From a virus: DNA of 20,152 bases. Below, in pieces: positions 10,574 through 19,731 of this stretch (the first letter of the stretch is position 1; every line of letters begins with the position of its first letter). The translations under genes were made by a program, and so were the position numbers. The notes beneath the pieces were generated by a model. That model was not told where the DNA came from, did not search any database, and saw only the letters and a list, made by a program, of their open reading frames with translations. The stretch is taken from positions 1 through 20,152 of the IMG/VR virus record IMGVR_UViG_3300005613_004101. The stretch is one strand, 5' to 3'.

Positions 10574-12046
10574 ATGTCAGTCTTTAAATCATATTTTAAT
10601 AGAAACAACACTCTCGTTTATAATTCATATTCTAACACGGGTAGAAACCCCGTTGTTGAATTATTTTTCGGACGAGTAGATAACGTATTACTACCATTAG
10701 GTTATAGTCGTTTTATCTTTAATATTGATTTAGCTGGTCTACAACAAAAAATTTCTGACGGTGTTATTTCTACAGGTTGTTCCAAAACAATGACCCATAC
10801 GTTAAGAATGACCAACACGTCTGCATTTGATGAAGAATTACTTAATGATAAGTGGTCAAACGGAAGAAGAAGAGCAACATCATTTGATTTGGTATTATTT
10901 AGAATACCTAAGGTGTCAGGTACAACAGGAAATCCTCAATCATGGGACGAAGGTGTTGGATATGATTATTATGACTTTAATCAGGACCTACCAACGGACA
11001 AATCATTTTCAGAAAGACCTTCAAATTGGTTTGAAGCCAAGACCGTAACAAATTGGTCATATAATGGAATTTATGACAACCAAAACGGTCAGTCGATATC
11101 AGGACTTAATTTCTCAGGATTAACCATTGTGGATACACAACACTTTGAGTTTGGTAATGAGGATATTGAGTTTGATATGACAAACGAAATTAACAACATT
11201 CTAACGGGTTCAACAACGGGTGTTACAGGATGGGGTATTGCTTTCTACCCTGAGGTTGAGAATATTACAGGTTTAACAGAAAACTATTCAGTCGGATTCT
11301 TTTCTCGTCACACTCAGACTTTCTATGAACCTTTCTTAGAGACAACATATAATGATTTAATAGAAGATGACCGCAACATATTCTACGAACAAAGAAAAAA
11401 CAAACTTTATCTATATTCTTATAATTTTGGAGTTCCTCAAAATTTCGATAGTTTACCCACTGTTGACATACTTGATTTAAATGGGGACCCCGTTCCTAAT
11501 TTTACGGGTTTAACCACCTGTCAGGTTACCAACGGAGTTTATGAAGTTGAGATTGACGGATTAACCGCAGATACCACACCGTGTATGTATTACGATGTGT
11601 GGAAGGGATTATCCATTAATGGTGTGAGCATCAACGATGTTGAAAATGAGTTTGTTATTAATGATTTATCAAACTTATACCAAATCGGTTCAACAACAAA
11701 CGAACCATCGATATACGGATTTGATTATTATGGTATTAAACAAGATGAAAAAATATTGGGTAATGATATTCGCAAAGTGGGTGTTATTATCAAAAAGGCA
11801 TATACGACAAACGAGGTATTAAATAAGGTTGAGGCTTATTACCGAGTTTATGTAAGGGAGGGAAAAACGGAAGTTCAGGTTCAGGATTGGACCAAACTAA
11901 ATCGTACTCCTGACGGTCATTATTTTATGTTTACAACAGAAGATAAGATACCTAACGAATATTTTATTGATATGAAAGTGATTACTGACCGAGAAGTTAA
12001 CACTTATAAAAGAACCCTCAAGTTTCAAATTGTGAACAGAAAATGA
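10574..12046 (+). CDS. Beta-rich virion/appendage protein, possibly with a DNRLRE-like domain
   Basis: A 490-aa protein with few long helices. Residues about 1-285 look like a jelly-roll carbohydrate-binding-type fold. NTLVYNSYSNTGRNPVVELF opens it, YSRFIFNIDLAGL resembles the 'sllrFdLs' strand of DNRLRE/CBM96 domains, and IEFDMTNEINNIL with GWGIAFYPE resembles the 'DVTxxVxxW...GwxI' element. SRHTQTFYEPFLETTYND is the closing strand. Residues about 285-490 look like two Ig-like beta modules (for example VDILDLNGDPVPNFTGL and VEAYYRVYVREGKTEVQV). It follows the baseplate gene behind its own putative late promoter, so a baseplate wedge, tail fibre or decoration role is likely. No named family is certain. 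Confidence 0.72.
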   Translation: MSVFKSYFNRNNTLVYNSYSNTGRNPVVELFFGRVDNVLLPLGYSRFIFNIDLAGLQQKISDGVISTGCSKTMTHTLRMTNTSAFDEELLNDKWSNGRRRATSFDLVLFRIPKVSGTTGNPQSWDEGVGYDYYDFNQDLPTDKSFSERPSNWFEAKTVTNWSYNGIYDNQNGQSISGLNFSGLTIVDTQHFEFGNEDIEFDMTNEINNILTGSTTGVTGWGIAFYPEVENITGLTENYSVGFFSRHTQTFYEPFLETTYNDLIEDDRNIFYEQRKNKLYLYSYNFGVPQNFDSLPTVDILDLNGDPVPNFTGLTTCQVTNGVYEVEIDGLTADTTPCMYYDVWKGLSINGVSINDVENEFVINDLSNLYQIGSTTNEPSIYGFDYYGIKQDEKILGNDIRKVGVIIKKAYTTNEVLNKVEAYYRVYVREGKTEVQVQDWTKLNRTPDGHYFMFTTEDKIPNEYFIDMKVITDREVNTYKRTLKFQIVNRK

Positions 12047-12300
12047 AAAGAGTAAAATTAACAGAAGCGGAATTGATTGAAATCATCACTCGTGTTATTA
12101 ACGAGAAAAAGAAAAGTAAAACTAAAAAGAAAAAAGATACCACATTATGTGCTCGTGGTAAAAGTGCCGCTAAGGCCAAATTTGAGGTATACCCATCTGC
12201 ATATGCTAACGGTTATGCTGTTCAAGTATGTAAGGGAAAGATGCCAGGGTTGGACGGAAAGAAAAGATGTTCAGGAAAGTATTGTTCTGGTAAAAAATAA
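12043..12300 (+). CDS. Small basic protein with putative capsid-targeting N-terminus
   Basis: An 85-aa, very Lys-rich protein. Residues 1-21 form an amphipathic segment containing KLTEAELIEI and ending in RVINE. It is 13/21 identical to the N-terminus of the otherwise unrelated protein encoded at 16475-15342. A Lys-rich linker (22-35) leads to a compact Cys-containing domain, LCARGKSAAKAKFEVYPSAY followed by ANGYAVQVCKGK. This is a pattern I recognise from many uncharacterised phage and large-virus proteins. The start overlaps the previous stop (ATGA). By analogy with T4 internal proteins, residues 1-21 may target the protein to the prohead and be removed after VINE, leaving a DNA-binding basic protein. 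That role is inference. Confidence 0.75.
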   Translation: MKRVKLTEAELIEIITRVINEKKKSKTKKKKDTTLCARGKSAAKAKFEVYPSAYANGYAVQVCKGKMPGLDGKKRCSGKYCSGKK

Positions 12301-12334: not shown

Positions 12335-12526
12335 ATGAAGGCAAATCAGATTACCTACCAATTAATCAAAAAGAAAAAAGACGGAACTGAAAAAGTGGTT
12401 CATGAAACTCAATCATCATGCGTCGAAAAAGCAATGGATTACTTCTTTATTATGAAGCCAAAAGCTTACGATAGTAAAAAATATAGAATCGGTATTAAAC
12501 CAAAACCTGTGTTTGTGTTAGACTAA
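12335..12526 (+). CDS. Small basic protein of unknown function
   Basis: A 63-aa Lys-rich protein with alternating strands, TYQLIKKKKDGTEKVVHE, then a helix SCVEKAMDYFFIM and a C-terminal strand YRIGIKPKPVFVLD. No family is recognised. It has its own host-type promoter, unlike the structural genes around it, which hints at early expression and perhaps a host-takeover role. Its last nine bases overlap the 3' end of the opposing cupin gene. Confidence 0.65.
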   Translation: MKANQITYQLIKKKKDGTEKVVHETQSSCVEKAMDYFFIMKPKAYDSKKYRIGIKPKPVFVLD

Positions 12527-13066
12527 TTTCTGAATTAACCATTTATATCCAACATCACCACCATGTGATAACCACTCAACATATTCTTTGTGTTGTTCAG
12601 GCTTCCCTTTAAAGTTTTCATTAAGAGATATGGATTTCATTTTTCCGTCAAAAAACTCTTTTAAAACTTTCATATCTTCTTTTGTCACATAACCCTTCTC
12701 AATTAAGGATTGTGTAAAAGTGTTTACGTTTTTGGACTTTCTTCCATACATAATACCCTTTTTCATTTCAATCATTACTGGTTTTGGTATTCTGTATTTT
12801 CCATTATTCTCAATAATGGAAATTTTAAGGTCACCAGTCCCTTTAATTACTCGGTGATATGTCTCTTTAGGGATAAAGTATTTTTGTCCTTCTTGCAAGT
12901 CCTGAGGTAGTTCCTCGTCCATTTGTAACTTCCATCCCTTACCTGACTCAACAAAAACAATACGGTCGTGTTGGTCTTTGTGCCATTTTAATTCACCTGA
13001 GTCAACAGATTCAGAGAATACTCTTCTAAATGTATTATGTGATATGTTTTGTTGTTTGTATACCAT
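12518..13066 (-). CDS. Cupin-fold protein
   Basis: A 182-aa protein whose first 90 residues read as a cupin barrel. ELKWHKDQHDRIVFVESGKG carries His and Asp/Glu positions of cupin motif 1, and GQKYFIPKETYHRVIKGTGD carries the motif 2 Pro and His. A single metal or sugar site is therefore possible. The remainder is helical and Lys-rich, including a KEDMKVLKEFFDGKMKSISL segment and a conserved-looking HKEYVEWLSHGGDVGYKWLI C-terminus. I start it at the ATG at 13066, which forms a TAATG overlap with the stop of the upstream fusion gene, rather than at an in-frame TTG at 13072. Translation is probably coupled to the fusion protein. Substrate and role are unknown; similar cupins occur in T4-like phages. 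Confidence 0.75.
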   Translation of the reverse strand: MVYKQQNISHNTFRRVFSESVDSGELKWHKDQHDRIVFVESGKGWKLQMDEELPQDLQEGQKYFIPKETYHRVIKGTGDLKISIIENNGKYRIPKPVMIEMKKGIMYGRKSKNVNTFTQSLIEKGYVTKEDMKVLKEFFDGKMKSISLNENFKGKPEQHKEYVEWLSHGGDVGYKWLIQKLV

Positions 13067-14301
13067 TACCAAAATCTTCCTGAGACATTCTTACCGAAAT
13101 CTTTATGGGCTCTACACGCCCAATAACCTGCTTTAGTTTTATCTTTTTTCTTTACACATTGGTGTCTTGCTGCGAATGACTTACGAGCTGCAGGGTCATT
13201 CCATTTGGCAGTCATTACTGGTGAACCATAAGATACCTTCTTAATCTTACCCGTTTTTGGATTACGAACATATACATACCATTTTTTAGACCCACCCGTT
13301 TTTGGTTTGTTTAACTCAACTTTCTTTCCTTTATATTCGGCCTCTGATAAACCAAATATTTTTTTAGCTGTAGGATTTAAATCAGAAGGTTTAATAAGTT
13401 TAGCAGGTATGGTTTCTGTTTTAGATATTAATGATTTTTGAGCTCTATGGTTTCCATCTAATATCCATAGAATTTTACCATTTTCATCTACCATAATTAA
13501 AATAGGATATTGAGACGATACTTCCACTTGAGAAATTCTCTCAATCTCCTCAGGATTATTATCCCAATTTAGGACAATATTTGCTAATTTTTTTGTGGGG
13601 AAGTTTATAATTTTAATGTCTTTTGTGAGTTCTAAAATATCTTGAAGTGTTATTGTATCCTCACCGCTTGTCCAAGACGTATCTTCCCCTTGTTCATTAA
13701 TCATTGGAAAATCTAAAGGTAATCTTTCACCATTATATATAAAGAATTTACCTCTTTCAGATTCCAATATTTCAATATCTTCTTCAGACCAATTACCATA
13801 ACCCTTCTTATATAATTCACGAGCCTCATTAATTACCTTAAAGTATTTTGGACTACCGTATCTAAAAACGTTTTCAGTTAATGAAATTTTATTATCAAAA
13901 TGGTATTTTAAATCTTCAGAGATAACAGGTTTGTTGTTTTCCAAAACCAAATTAACCAATCGGTCAACCGCTTCATTCTTCTTTTTCTTTTTGTAATTTT
14001 TCACTTTAATACGTGTTGGCTTTTGACCTTTACCTGTTTGGGGGTCTTTCTTTTCTTTTTCACGTTTTCTACGACAAGCCGAGTCTTTTTCTGATTGACT
14101 CATCTTACCCGCAACACCAGCACCTCTACATACAGGGTATGCACCCTTATCAGCATCTTTTCTACCACAAGGAGGGTGACCACCACCTTTTTTCTTTTTA
14201 CAAATATTCACCCACGGACCCTTAGGTTGAGAAGAACCTTTTTTCTTTTTCTTTTTTCCAAACCACACGGCCAAATCTTCGGATAAAATATATTCACTCA
14301 T
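13066..14301 (-). CDS. Fusion: DUF5872-like N-terminus, ParB-like domain and basic virion C-terminus
   Basis: A 411-aa protein with three parts. Residues 1-110 are Cys/Lys-rich: LAVWFGKKKKKKGSSQPKGP (10-29), then WVNIC, HPPCGR, AYPVCRGAGVAGKMS, a pattern I associate with DUF5872. The middle (about 120-320) contains YPILIMVDENGKILWILDGN followed by HRAQ (265-288). DGNHR matches the DGxHR box of ParB/sulfiredoxin-like folds, which include nucleases and kinases. The C-terminal 70 residues (WYVYVRNPKTGKIKKVSYGS, then ARKSFAARHQC and KAGYWACRAHK) match a basic module common in T4-like marine phage virion proteins. VINE-Ala occurs at 156-160, the same tetrapeptide as in two tagged neighbours. It is probably packaged in the head; enzymatic activity is inference. 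Confidence 0.78.
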   Translation of the reverse strand: MSEYILSEDLAVWFGKKKKKKGSSQPKGPWVNICKKKKGGGHPPCGRKDADKGAYPVCRGAGVAGKMSQSEKDSACRRKREKEKKDPQTGKGQKPTRIKVKNYKKKKKNEAVDRLVNLVLENNKPVISEDLKYHFDNKISLTENVFRYGSPKYFKVINEARELYKKGYGNWSEEDIEILESERGKFFIYNGERLPLDFPMINEQGEDTSWTSGEDTITLQDILELTKDIKIINFPTKKLANIVLNWDNNPEEIERISQVEVSSQYPILIMVDENGKILWILDGNHRAQKSLISKTETIPAKLIKPSDLNPTAKKIFGLSEAEYKGKKVELNKPKTGGSKKWYVYVRNPKTGKIKKVSYGSPVMTAKWNDPAARKSFAARHQCVKKKDKTKAGYWACRAHKDFGKNVSGRFW

Positions 14302-15102: not shown

Positions 15103-15345
15103 ATGAAGAAACTATTTTACATATTAACAATCACTGTCGTATTAATTTCTTGTGGACAAGTAAAACAAGACAATGGGTTATGTCAACCTGATGAGTATTA
15201 CTCCAATCCCGACACTTCATCACCTGTTTATGATTCTTTTGTGTTTGGTCAAGTTGTAGATACAATATCTGAACCAATTAAATTTGATAGTTTAGGTTTG
15301 GTAAAAGATAGTATTAGATTTGATTCGTTAATGAATGTGGATTAA
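15103..15345 (+). CDS. Small lipoprotein
   Basis: An 80-aa protein with a type II signal peptide. A KK N-terminus is followed by the hydrophobic stretch LFYILTITVVL (4-14) and the lipobox LISC with Cys17, so the mature protein would be lipid-anchored from Cys17. The mature part (about 64 aa) contains an imperfect repeat: VYDSFVFGQVVDTI (42-55), IKFDSLGLVKDSI (59-71) and IRFDSLMNV (71-79). It has its own host-type promoter and is convergent with the OmpA-like gene, sharing the TTAA that provides both stop codons. A small phage lipoprotein could act in superinfection exclusion or as a spanin-like lysis protein. The sequence does not decide between them. Confidence 0.75.
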   Translation: MKKLFYILTITVVLISCGQVKQDNGLCQPDEYYSNPDTSSPVYDSFVFGQVVDTISEPIKFDSLGLVKDSIRFDSLMNVD

Positions 15346-15360
15346 CTCCCACATTCATTA
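15329..15360. terminator. Hairpin spanning the convergent stop codons (candidate bidirectional terminator)
   Basis: TAATGAATGTGG (15329-15340) and CCACATTCATTA (15349-15360) form a perfect 12-bp stem with an 8-base loop that holds both stop codons. It lies entirely within the coding ends of the lipoprotein gene and the opposing OmpA-like gene. There is no long T tract on either side, so termination is inferred only from the hairpin and the convergent arrangement. Confidence 0.5.
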
Positions 15361-16475
15361 TTACCAAAACCTTTGATTACTTTGTCGGCACAGGCATCTA
15401 ATGAACCAATATAGACAACCTTCTTTGACCCTCTGGTTAGTTTAGCAGATGGGAATCCCGCATATACACATTTACGATTACCCTCATCTCCATTATAAAT
15501 TGTCACATAAGGAATGTCCGCATGAACATCATCAACGGCACCTTGAATTGCAATGTCAATACTAGTTGATTTTATTTCTAATATCTTTTGTGCAACTTGA
15601 GGATTTAATTTAAATGCACATTCTCTATTAACATTAGTTTCTATAGGTGAATTTGTTGCTATTGGACGTTTAGTTCCCCTTATTATTCTATTTTTTGTAA
15701 TATATAAAGGACCTGGATTCCAATTGGCAACTTCATTACTATGATTAACTTTACCATTATTTTCAATAAATGGTCTGTTATTAAGATTTGCTCGACCGAT
15801 AACAATACCATTTAGTAATATGTTAAAAACCGCTTTGTTACAAAAATGTCTACTCGTACCTTTAGGTAATTTTTCTTCTTTATATGCAACACTTATAGTT
15901 AAATTGACTATACAGTCAAAATTGGCAATCGCCTCAACAGTTATTCTTACAAATTGATGAGGTTTATATTGTTCAAAGAAAGTTTTACATTTTTGACTTT
16001 CCCTACCACCTGCTTCTTTACCACAATTTTTTTGATATTCTTCTCTACTATAATCGGGACCACCAATAATAGGTGTTATTTTAAATTCAGGTACCTTATC
16101 TAAATTACCCGATTGGACAGCACCTTTATAGTAGTCAGTGAATAATTTTTTAATTGATTCACCCCTCATTTTAGCCAAATCACCAGAATTTAACTGTTTT
16201 CTATTATTTTCGGCATCATAATTAGTAACCTTAGATTCACCTACCTGAATATCAAATTTTATAATTGAACCTCTGTTCTGTTTTATAAAATTATCAATCG
16301 ACTGTCTTTGTTTATCTAAATTAGCCTTAACCTCTTTGGGTAATTGATTTACACTGTGAAAACCAGCGTTCCAAGTCCCTTCCATATTAACGGTTATTTT
16401 TTTCTCCTCCTGTTCATTAATAACTCTACGAACTATTTCTTCTAAATCAGTCTCCGTTAATCTTATCTTTTTCAT
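15342..16475 (-). CDS. OmpA-like-domain protein with putative capsid-targeting N-terminus
   Basis: A 377-aa protein. Residues 1-21 contain RLTETDLEEIVRRVINE and match the tag of the 12043 protein (13/21 identical, both ending in VINE at 18-21). Residues about 35-185 resemble an OmpA/MotB-type peptidoglycan-binding domain: LDKQRQSIDNFIKQNRGSII, FDIQVGESKVTNYDAENNRK, then LNSGDLAKMRGESIKKLF, the 'N..LS..RA..V...L' helix. It is an atypical version with a Cys-containing insertion (150-163). Residues 187-377 are beta-rich with several Cys and match nothing I know. There is no signal peptide, which is unusual for an OmpA domain and fits virion delivery rather than host secretion. A TATTTATA element lies 20 bases upstream. 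Confidence 0.68.
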   Translation of the reverse strand: MKKIRLTETDLEEIVRRVINEQEEKKITVNMEGTWNAGFHSVNQLPKEVKANLDKQRQSIDNFIKQNRGSIIKFDIQVGESKVTNYDAENNRKQLNSGDLAKMRGESIKKLFTDYYKGAVQSGNLDKVPEFKITPIIGGPDYSREEYQKNCGKEAGGRESQKCKTFFEQYKPHQFVRITVEAIANFDCIVNLTISVAYKEEKLPKGTSRHFCNKAVFNILLNGIVIGRANLNNRPFIENNGKVNHSNEVANWNPGPLYITKNRIIRGTKRPIATNSPIETNVNRECAFKLNPQVAQKILEIKSTSIDIAIQGAVDDVHADIPYVTIYNGDEGNRKCVYAGFPSAKLTRGSKKVVYIGSLDACADKVIKGFGNNECGS

Positions 16476-16560: not shown

Positions 16561-18330
16561 TTATCTTAAAGAGTTCAAGTCGAATGTACGAACACCATCA
16601 ACAACGATTCTACCGTAGAAACGGTTGTTAACCATTTTCTTAGCGTATCTAGTCATGATACCCTTGATTGGTGTAAAGTTGAATGGATTGTACATTGTTG
16701 GTGTCAACTGTAATGGTACATATGGTGCATAAACGTAACCTGTATCCAATAAAGAAGAACCTTTATGACCCATCAATACAGTGTTTGGTGGGAAGTAAGG
16801 GTCACGGTAAACTTGATATCTACCTGATAACGTACCTACTCTCTCAATACCCATATTGTATTGGTCTTGGTCAGGTGCTGCGTTTGATACGTGGAAGTAT
16901 TCCAAGTCATCGAAGATTGCAGAAATTTCAGAAGAAACTACAATCCAGTTAGCACCACCTCTAAGTGTTGATTTATGGATTTGAGCTGAAATCTGATTGA
17001 TTGCAGTAATCAATGTTTGATTCCAATCCTTTTGGTTGTAGTTTACAGAACCGTTAGAAATTCTCTTCCATCCGTTGTAGTCCCAACGTAATGTCCAAGC
17101 CGCACCTTTTCTTAAGTCTCTTAAGATTTCACGGTCAATTTCTGCCGCAACTTGCTCAGATAATAAAGCTGTTAATTCAGCCTCAGCGTCGATGTTGTGG
17201 AATGCAGAAACGTCTTGTGCCAATTCTGGAGACCATTGTGCTCTTAATTTTCTTTCTGTTACAGAAACTGTTACTGACTCAAGGTCAAATGATACTTCAC
17301 CGATTCTATCTTCGAATTCCATATCTTTGTAAATTCTGTACTTAGCAACTAATGTGTCATATAAACCACCAGCTGCGAAAGTTTGTCCTGTGTAACCATC
17401 TAAAGATGTAGAACCAATAGCTGCAGGTGAAGAAACATCTACAGATAAGTAAATCTTACCATCAGTAGTACAAATATCATCATACTTACCACCTGGGAAA
17501 GTTGTTGATGATTGTTGTCCATATTCAACAATACCTTTACCGTATTTCTGAGTTACAACATTAAAGTTGTAGAATACAGAACCACTGTAAACTTGTAATG
17601 AAGACAAGAACTCTTCAGTGTCTTGCTCGTTACCGTTAGGTCCAATTAATTTACCTTGACCATCACTAGTGAAACCAGTCATTTCAACCAATATTTGTCT
17701 GAAACCACCCGCAGGTGTTGTAGTTGCACCTGTATAGAAATCGTCTGCACCTACTCTTGTTAATGATGCACCATTCCAAATAACAGGATATAATGTAACA
17801 CCAGTTTTCGCTGAGTATGCTCCTTTTGAGTAGTCAAATAAACCTGCTGGGTCTTCATCTGGTTCACCACCTTCATAGAAACGGTCATACAAGTTCTTAC
17901 TTGTGCTTGTGTAACCTGTACTTGGGTCAGTTGCAGTGTTATTTGGTGCTCCGTAAGGTTGGAAGTGATTTTCTAAACCATCAACAGTTACTCTGTCCTG
18001 AATTTTAGGTACAAAGTAGAACAATTTACCGATTGGTAAGTTCATAGCTTGTACAGATACGATATCATTAGCTAATAATTTAGAGAAAACTCTTCTAATG
18101 ATAGGGAAAACTACAGTTTCAAATGAACCTGAGTTATCTGAAGCAGATGCTTCGTTAATTAGGTGAGATGCTTGGTTCTCATATAATTGAGCCATGTTCT
18201 CTTTTACGTGTCCTTTAAGACCTTCTAGGAATCCTAATTTATCCCATTTGTTAATTGTGTCTTCTTTGATAACTTTCAAGTGCTTAAGACCGATGTTACC
18301 AACAAGACCTGATTCTAATAATGCTCCCAT
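16561..18330 (-). CDS. Major capsid protein (T4 gp23-like)
   Basis: A 589-aa T4-type HK97-fold capsid protein. A helical N-terminal prodomain (1-60: TINKWDKLGFLEGLKGHVKE, MAQLYENQASHLINE) is followed by a predicted maturation cleavage after Glu60 in LINE-ASAS. This is directly comparable to T4 gp23, which is cut after Glu65. FPIIRRVFSKLLANDIVSVQ and AMNLPIGKLFYFVP match the start of the mature gp23 core. VSVTERKLRAQWSPELAQDV is the conserved central segment, and the C-terminus has GYVYAPYVPLQLTPTMYNPF, FTPIKGIMTRYAKK and FYGRIVVDGV. It is longer than T4 gp23 (521 aa), mainly through a Gly/Thr/Tyr-rich region at about 110-320 that is probably surface-exposed. It follows the core gene after 30 bases and ends at a strong terminator. 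Confidence 0.95.
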   Translation of the reverse strand: MGALLESGLVGNIGLKHLKVIKEDTINKWDKLGFLEGLKGHVKENMAQLYENQASHLINEASASDNSGSFETVVFPIIRRVFSKLLANDIVSVQAMNLPIGKLFYFVPKIQDRVTVDGLENHFQPYGAPNNTATDPSTGYTSTSKNLYDRFYEGGEPDEDPAGLFDYSKGAYSAKTGVTLYPVIWNGASLTRVGADDFYTGATTTPAGGFRQILVEMTGFTSDGQGKLIGPNGNEQDTEEFLSSLQVYSGSVFYNFNVVTQKYGKGIVEYGQQSSTTFPGGKYDDICTTDGKIYLSVDVSSPAAIGSTSLDGYTGQTFAAGGLYDTLVAKYRIYKDMEFEDRIGEVSFDLESVTVSVTERKLRAQWSPELAQDVSAFHNIDAEAELTALLSEQVAAEIDREILRDLRKGAAWTLRWDYNGWKRISNGSVNYNQKDWNQTLITAINQISAQIHKSTLRGGANWIVVSSEISAIFDDLEYFHVSNAAPDQDQYNMGIERVGTLSGRYQVYRDPYFPPNTVLMGHKGSSLLDTGYVYAPYVPLQLTPTMYNPFNFTPIKGIMTRYAKKMVNNRFYGRIVVDGVRTFDLNSLR

Positions 18331-18360: not shown

Positions 18361-19731
18361 TTATTTTTGAATCTTATTCATCAAATCCTTCATTCTTAAG
18401 AATTGTGGATTTTCATATGTCTTAGATTCGATAAGACTTGAAGCCGAACCTTTAGAAGGTGATTTTTGTACTTTAGCCTTAACTGATTCAGTTACAACTG
18501 AAGAACCTTCTTTAGATGCCAAATCTTCTTTAATTGTCTTATAAAGACCTTTAGATTCCTTAATAGTTTCTGCGGAATCAAAACGTCTTAAAATGTTTAT
18601 TTTTTCTTGCTTTGTTGTCGAATGCTCAGTGAACAGTCGAGTAGCATATGCTAAGTTTGAATTGAAGACTGCAACCTCGTTAAGTTTTTCCTTAAAGATG
18701 TTAAGTGCCTTACGGTACTCTTCATTCTTTTCTCTTAACTGAGCAACTTCTCTTTCAAGTGACTCATTTCTTTGTGCTGGTCTCTTTAAAGACTTAGGGA
18801 AACCTTGAGGTTTTTTGTTAGTTGCACGACCATTAACGTTAGAACGAACAGAAGATTCAGTATATTCACCTTCTCTTGTTTCGAAATGTGCGTCGTCTCT
18901 TCTTGCTTTCTTAGAATTTAAATCCTTGTCTGCAATTTTACCACGTCTCATTCCTAATCTTTCGTCTTCACGGTCATCATAACCCTGACCTTCTTTCATT
19001 TCCTCTTCGTCAGATTCATCTTCAGATTCATCTTCCATTTCGTCTTCTTCACCAAGTTCAATTTCGTAAACAACTTCGTCTTCTTCTTCCATTTCATAAC
19101 CTTCTTTGTATTCGCCTTCCATTTCTTCTTCGTCAGCGATTACCTCTTCTTCTTCATCACCTTCCATTTGAATTTTGTACTCAGCATCAGTCTCATCGTC
19201 CTTCAATGTGATTTCATCATCATCTTTGGTTACGATAATACCGTCTTCGTCACCCATTGCTTTGAAAACCTTAAGGATTTCTTCGTCAGATGCGTCGGTT
19301 AAGTCTAATGGTAAAAGAACTTCATCTTCATCGTCTACTTCCATGTCATCACCTGGTAAGTCCATCATTAGCATTTCATCAGAATCCATTTCCATTTCGT
19401 CATCATCCATGTCCATTTCCATGTCCATTTCATCAGACTCCATTTCATCTTCATCTTCTACTTCCATGTCTTCCATATCCATTTCAGGTTCCATATCTTC
19501 TTGTTCAGTCATTTCTGACTCTTTTTCCATGTTTTCACCTTCCATAGCTTCTGCAGACATTTCATCTTCAATCTCAATTTCTTCTTCAGATAGAGATTCT
19601 TTTACTAATTCACTGATTTCTTCCTTCATAGTAGAAGCAAGTATTCCTTTTGCATTCTCCGTTACGGCTTCTTCCAAATTTTTCATTTGTAATAGTGCCT
19701 CTTCAACTAGATTGTGTTTTTTTTCTGCCAT
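18361..19731 (-). CDS. Prohead core scaffold protein (T4 gp22-like) with large acidic insert
   Basis: A 456-aa protein in the gp22 position, directly before the capsid gene. The C-terminal part carries the recognisable core-protein segment: a coiled coil at about 322-352 (LEREVAQLREKNEEYRKALN), then NSNLAYATRLFTEHSTTKQE (357-376), KINILRRFDSAETIKESKGL and YKTIKEDL. The N-terminal helix (7-48) is also scaffold-like. Between them, residues about 49-250 are extremely rich in Glu, Asp and Met with DMEME-type repeats. A more ordered patch (146-189, DASDEEILKVFKAMGDEDGI) interrupts this region. T4 gp22 is 269 aa, so the insert explains most of the extra length. The protein should form the prohead core and be degraded by the head protease during maturation. 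Confidence 0.87.
   Translation of the reverse strand: MAEKKHNLVEEALLQMKNLEEAVTENAKGILASTMKEEISELVKESLSEEEIEIEDEMSAEAMEGENMEKESEMTEQEDMEPEMDMEDMEVEDEDEMESDEMDMEMDMDDDEMEMDSDEMLMMDLPGDDMEVDDEDEVLLPLDLTDASDEEILKVFKAMGDEDGIIVTKDDDEITLKDDETDAEYKIQMEGDEEEEVIADEEEMEGEYKEGYEMEEEDEVVYEIELGEEDEMEDESEDESDEEEMKEGQGYDDREDERLGMRRGKIADKDLNSKKARRDDAHFETREGEYTESSVRSNVNGRATNKKPQGFPKSLKRPAQRNESLEREVAQLREKNEEYRKALNIFKEKLNEVAVFNSNLAYATRLFTEHSTTKQEKINILRRFDSAETIKESKGLYKTIKEDLASKEGSSVVTESVKAKVQKSPSKGSASSLIESKTYENPQFLRMKDLMNKIQK

Follow-up and report, generated by a model that had tools for sequence, protein, structure and literature searches.

What is an enzyme-like domain doing between the basic modules of a protein encoded close to a gp23-type capsid gene? 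The question is raised by a 411-residue modular protein encoded in a 20,152-nucleotide stretch of viral DNA (IMG/VR record IMGVR_UViG_3300005613_004101), the whole of which is referred to here as the window (Table 1). The gene is real, since full-length relatives, 87% identical, occur in other viral contigs.

Table 1. Features of the window considered in the text. A slash within a motif marks a predicted or proposed cleavage point.
Feature	Coordinates	Strand	Basis or remark
411-aa modular protein	13066..14301	-	whole ORF, stop included; ATG start
N-terminal leader MSEYILSE/D, residues 1-8, predicted cut after E8	14278..14301	-	motif count and model
Basic Cys/Lys-rich head module, residues 9-129, PHROG 23735- and 12753-like	13915..14277	-	ISE129/D at end
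Conserved small folded module, residues 130-203	13693..13914	-	ends INE203/Q; alignment and model
VINE/A, cleavage site of the preliminary description, residues 155-160	13822..13839	-	within helix 151-165; VINE/A itself at 156-160
Swappable ParB/Srx-fold module (predicted), residues 204-320	13342..13692	-	INE203/Q to LSE320/A
DGNHR motif, residues 282-286	13444..13458	-	invariant in 31 aligned sequences
Basic C-terminal module, residues 321-411	13069..13341	-	PHROG 7595; edge test 12/12 contexts
Cupin-like gene, start overlapping modular-gene stop	12518..13072	-	Pfam Cupin_2 3.9e-5, below cut-off
85-aa basic protein, shared leader MKRVKLTEAELIEIITRVINE/K	12043..12300	+	
377-aa protein, shared leader MKKIRLTETDLEEIVRRVINE/Q	15342..16475	-	
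gp23-type major capsid protein, N-terminal site HLINE/ASAS	16561..18330	-	Pfam Gp23 8.8e-73
Acidic protein, prohead core/scaffold position	18361..19731	-	position and composition

A preliminary description of this DNA saw the protein as a fusion of three parts: a DUF5872-like head, a central ParB/sulfiredoxin-like (ParB/Srx) domain and a basic C-terminal module. The modular fusion is borne out and the three parts are real; an extra conserved module (about residues 130-203), retained in phages immuto and Melnitz, must however be placed between the head and the centre. In gp099 of immuto, a Flavobacterium phage, LDE/G links this module to the C-terminal one. The head module itself is predicted to be mostly disordered. 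Its assignment to DUF5872 had to be given up, because a Pfam search with the 411-residue protein returned nothing at the cut-offs, DUF5872 (PF19197) included; DUF5872 does appear, below cut-off, in related polyproteins that carry PHROG 23735 as well. PHROGs 23735 and 12753 match the head weakly, and the 23735-type family also occurs within L125 and L126. The C-terminal module matches PHROG 7595 and the centre PHROG 17560, and all of the families matched are of unknown function.

What kind of domain is the centre? From an alignment of 31 viral sequences, AlphaFold2 gave a confident model of residues 204-320 (pLDDT 91.5, pTM 0.83), and the leading Foldseek matches in the PDB (Srx, SbnI, ParB, Noc, PadC, KorB and SerK) all belong to the ParB/sulfiredoxin superfamily. 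The best VIA-align Z score was 7.4, to Srx (6ky4). TM-scores against solved folds were modest (0.4-0.5), so the assignment depends on the agreement of the match list. Among the BFVD matches are phage proteins, from Psa21 and EL, that bear the name ParB/Sulfiredoxin, and independent support comes from the same domain in L124, which matches a PHROG ParB-like partition family (1.5e-5). The ParB/sulfiredoxin-superfamily fold claimed in the preliminary description is confirmed at the level of structure prediction and comparison, and it is the fold of sulfiredoxin, SbnI, SerK and Osa. Sequence homology to these solved proteins is nevertheless not detectable: a sequence-profile search of the PDB with the central domain gave no match, nor did the Pfam models, and one scan of genome contigs yielded no bacterial or archaeal homologues of the module.

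The DGNHR box, expected in the central domain, is where it was said to be, and its residues, together with those of TIPAK, are invariant throughout the alignment; the conserved Arg of the superfamily's pocket motif is thus present in all 31 sequences. In sulfiredoxin, the catalytic Cys lies in GGCHR, to which we take DGNHR to be equivalent. Every aligned member has Asn at the position of this Cys, which argues against a sulfiredoxin reaction.

The ParB/Srx module is a swappable cassette. It is absent or replaced in most of 80 viral relatives while the neighbouring modules persist: in the short forms, which account for most of the 80, residue 203 is joined seamlessly to about residue 318, and some other relatives have a different insert at the same site. 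A scan with the ParB domain alone found 46 loci, in which the domain can stand, in proteins reaching about 1,200 residues, beside other enzyme-like modules, among them M23 peptidase, peptidoglycan-binding, cytidylyltransferase-like, DUF192 and nucleotidase-like modules and, as a weak match below cut-off, ART-PolyVal. In L076, the modular protein has the body of the 85-residue basic protein of Table 1 as an N-terminal fusion. The family can also take a further insert of about 200 residues at residue 122; an insert of this size with a hydrophobic stretch (SICDSKKFC...FIRLMPWFIPQIAVAGMF) lies at about that position in L009, L010, L012, L022, L030, L039 and L047. A domain with CKYGANTKWCTT, in L042 (3170-4534) and also in L094, is another swappable insert.

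The modular gene lies downstream of both the gp23-type capsid gene and the acidic core-like gene, the product of which matched no family in the Pfam and PHROG scans. In long records of the window type, the modular gene is, by coordinates, 0.5-3 kb downstream of that for the major capsid protein (MCP). The MCPs of this phage group carry LINE/A, and a Peptidase_S77 of the gp21 type was found in 10 of 22 related records, which are all those with a full gp23 gene. Most records with VAE linkers, including one of 143 kb with T4-like leaders (G016), gave no gp21 or gp23 match; closer queries also returned nothing, which in the absence of a positive control shows little. On the other side, a cupin-like gene immediately follows the modular gene in 60 of 65 loci, and likewise in immuto and Melnitz. 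As a separate observation, a 244-residue protein encoded upstream of the protease gene in another genome (L163; G001 60531-61262) has ten [LIV][NSTA]E motifs and is possibly a prohead core protein that is cut to small pieces.

The T4 gp21 head protease cuts after L/I-X-E (PMC9026906). How are such motifs placed in the modular protein and its relatives? The pattern [LIVM]xE stands exactly at the N-terminal edge of the ParB module in 22 of 23 distinct upstream contexts, compared to 2.2% of background positions in the same proteins; the nominal P is about 1e-35, but the contexts share ancestry and the value overstates their independence, so that it should be read as far above chance. At the edge of the C-terminal module, the pattern is found in all 12 contexts. 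Within the window's own family it is conserved at E320 (30/30 relatives), E203 (15/15), E8 (23/24 relatives having those columns) and E129 (23/30). The motif thus lies at the predicted processed ends, as it does in gp21-processed proteins. In the model of the full-length protein, pLDDT falls below 50 through nearly all of residues 1-125 and again at 198-214 and 319-326; the last two stretches are the linkers that contain the predicted E203 and E320 cuts, and E8 is also in a low-confidence region.

The preliminary description proposed that the head protease could release the central domain at VINE159/A, and that it may be delivered to the host. The idea of a released and delivered protein is consistent with where the gene lies and with the motif counts, but the site does not serve as the main one. 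E159 is invariant among relatives and lies in a helix of the conserved module, where a cut would, on the model, split a folded unit and is less likely; E203 and E320 are in linkers, and the predicted release sites were moved accordingly. The likeliest sites, judged from motif and model, would be INE203/Q and LSE320/A, exactly at the two module edges. It counts against the cleavage model that so short a pattern as [LIVM]xE is found within folded modules too (E159, E180 and E273). Whether the linker motif strictly co-varies with the site of the capsid itself was considered as well and is not clear: in G011, the capsid has IVAE/A and the module edge LNE/S.

Could the protein simply be part of the head? 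The basic modules might remain in the virion, where they would stabilise or fill the head or bind DNA, beside an inert ParB/Srx domain, the IxE motifs serving only to clear propeptides. The very basic and largely disordered head module, the proximity of capsid and core genes, the lack of a ParB module in most relatives, and the T4 core proteins, which are cut into fragments that are mostly lost (PMC9026906), all suit such a structural role. We consider it unlikely, however, because the inserts comprise a variety of folded, enzyme-like domains, and the invariance of the DGNHR and TIPAK residues suggests that the ParB module has retained a function.

Less probable still is a protein that is never cut, in which the LNE and VAE linkers are merely conserved ends carried by recombining modules. 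Module exchange is clear, and a common linker would aid homologous exchange. It is difficult to see, though, why only the aliphatic P3 and the Glu P1 should then be conserved in the edge linkers, as they would be in a protease site, while the rest varies (VNE, IDE, ITE, LNE, LKE, LAE, IQE, VAE, MAE and VTE), or why these residues should recur at the site of the capsid protein itself and in the T4-like leaders. That the protein is a true ParB, active in replication or partition in the producing cell and not delivered, is very improbable: the fold and the PHROG match of L124 would suit it, but the gene is in a head gene cluster, the domain is found inside multi-module proteins, and no HTH domain or parA neighbour was recognised in the ORF or in the eight window proteins scanned (Pfam and PHROGs).

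The best reading, and one that we hold to be probable, is a head-packaged, protease-released and injected cassette polyprotein: swappable modules that are each bounded by an apparent head-protease site suggest a kit of interchangeable proteins that is packed, cut and injected. The computed fold, module swapping, motif placement and gene setting are the grounds on which we infer packaging, cleavage, injection and activity. The modular protein would be made late, together with the capsid, as the precursor of internal head proteins, and would enter the prohead core. There the phage's gp21-type protease would cut after [LIVM]xE at E8, E129, E203 and E320, freeing a ParB/Srx-fold protein of 117 residues, along with basic pieces, to be injected together with the DNA. 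With cut sites at its edges, a module could be acquired, dropped or exchanged and the others left undisturbed. The freed domain may bind nucleotide and act at an early stage on nucleotides or on the nucleic acid of host or phage; by analogy with its superfamily, it would most likely be an NTP-dependent nicking or switch-like protein. If the cassette reading is true, it predicts which mature fragments should exist, and these can be checked directly by proteomics.

How does such a precursor compare with known systems? The leader ends in an IxE-type site, like those of T4 IPII and IPIII, and the modular protein would share with T4 IPI-III and Alt a gp21-type protease, packaging with the capsid and injection (PMC9026906). 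The T4 proteins have propeptides at their ends, whereas the modular protein has several tandem swappable modules with predicted edge sites. P1 DdrB, which has a ParB domain, is among the polyvalent proteins described in phages and plasmids (Iyer et al. 2017, PMC5512222). Like these, the family contains proteins of many modules, which include ParB/Srx, ART-like, peptidase and nucleotide-enzyme domains and are encoded close to late head genes. It is the relatives that combine several unrelated domains in this setting; in the window protein, a single enzyme-like domain is recognised. For polyvalent proteins, zincin peptidases embedded in the chain have been proposed to bring about release (PMC5512222), while the edges here match a head protease acting in trans. 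Compared to both the T4 internal proteins and the polyvalent proteins, what would be new is that the head protease frees the modules at their edges. Phages of the phiKZ/SPN3US type also have a Glu-specific head protease, propeptides and ejected proteins, but their capsid lineage differs from that of the window phage, and strings of swappable modules are not described for their ejection proteins in the excerpts of PMC10052503 and PMC9026906. A solo relative of the domain, Psa21 gp219, adjoins an annotated internal head protein. PA5oct gp343 contains a distant relative and was recorded as structural by ESI-MS/MS; a neighbouring recombination protein in PA5oct carries the same note, so the support from gp343 is weak.

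Other genes of the window's group carry a different leader, MKKIxRLTExDLxRIVxRVIxE, which is common to unrelated genes and present on two in the window (Table 1); the modular protein starts with MSEYILSE/ and not with this sequence. A pattern scan of IMG/VR that left the Glu unspecified (loci L177-L256) placed the leader within 15 residues of the start in 99 of 102 matches, and all 99 of these have Glu two residues after the Ile. The leader is joined to 93 distinct protein bodies, which fall into 67 unrelated clusters; of 16 long contigs carrying the leader, 12 also have genes for both S77 and gp23. In cultured phages, tblastn gave no match for a 23-residue consensus, a weak test at that length, and no paper containing LTESDL was found in the literature searched. 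We regard the shared leader ending in IxE as a candidate capsid-targeting signal.

Perhaps, then, environmental T4-like phages have a general system of injected-protein cassettes, with protease-site edges on the modules and a shared leader that targets dozens of unrelated cargoes; on balance we lean towards this broader proposal. The shared leader would then be, by analogy, the counterpart of the T4 capsid-targeting sequence, published as the first ten residues of IPIII (PMC9026906). Such a system would supply a sequence rule for which phage proteins enter heads and where they are cut. The rule would apply to large groups of uncultured phages, in which delivered proteins cannot otherwise be seen, and would give access to a large catalogue of injected proteins, many of them of unknown fold. 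T4-IP-like leaders themselves are found in G016, where five consecutive genes (L171, 73134-78767) begin, in order, with MRAKEFIVE/, MRAKEFIVE/, MRATEFITE/, MRANEFITE/ and MRYTEFIIE/, close to the MKTYQEFIAE/A of T4 IPII and IPIII; the second of the five contains the ParB module. Elsewhere in G016 (96538-99733, minus strand), other genes have MKINELI or MKINDIL near their starts.
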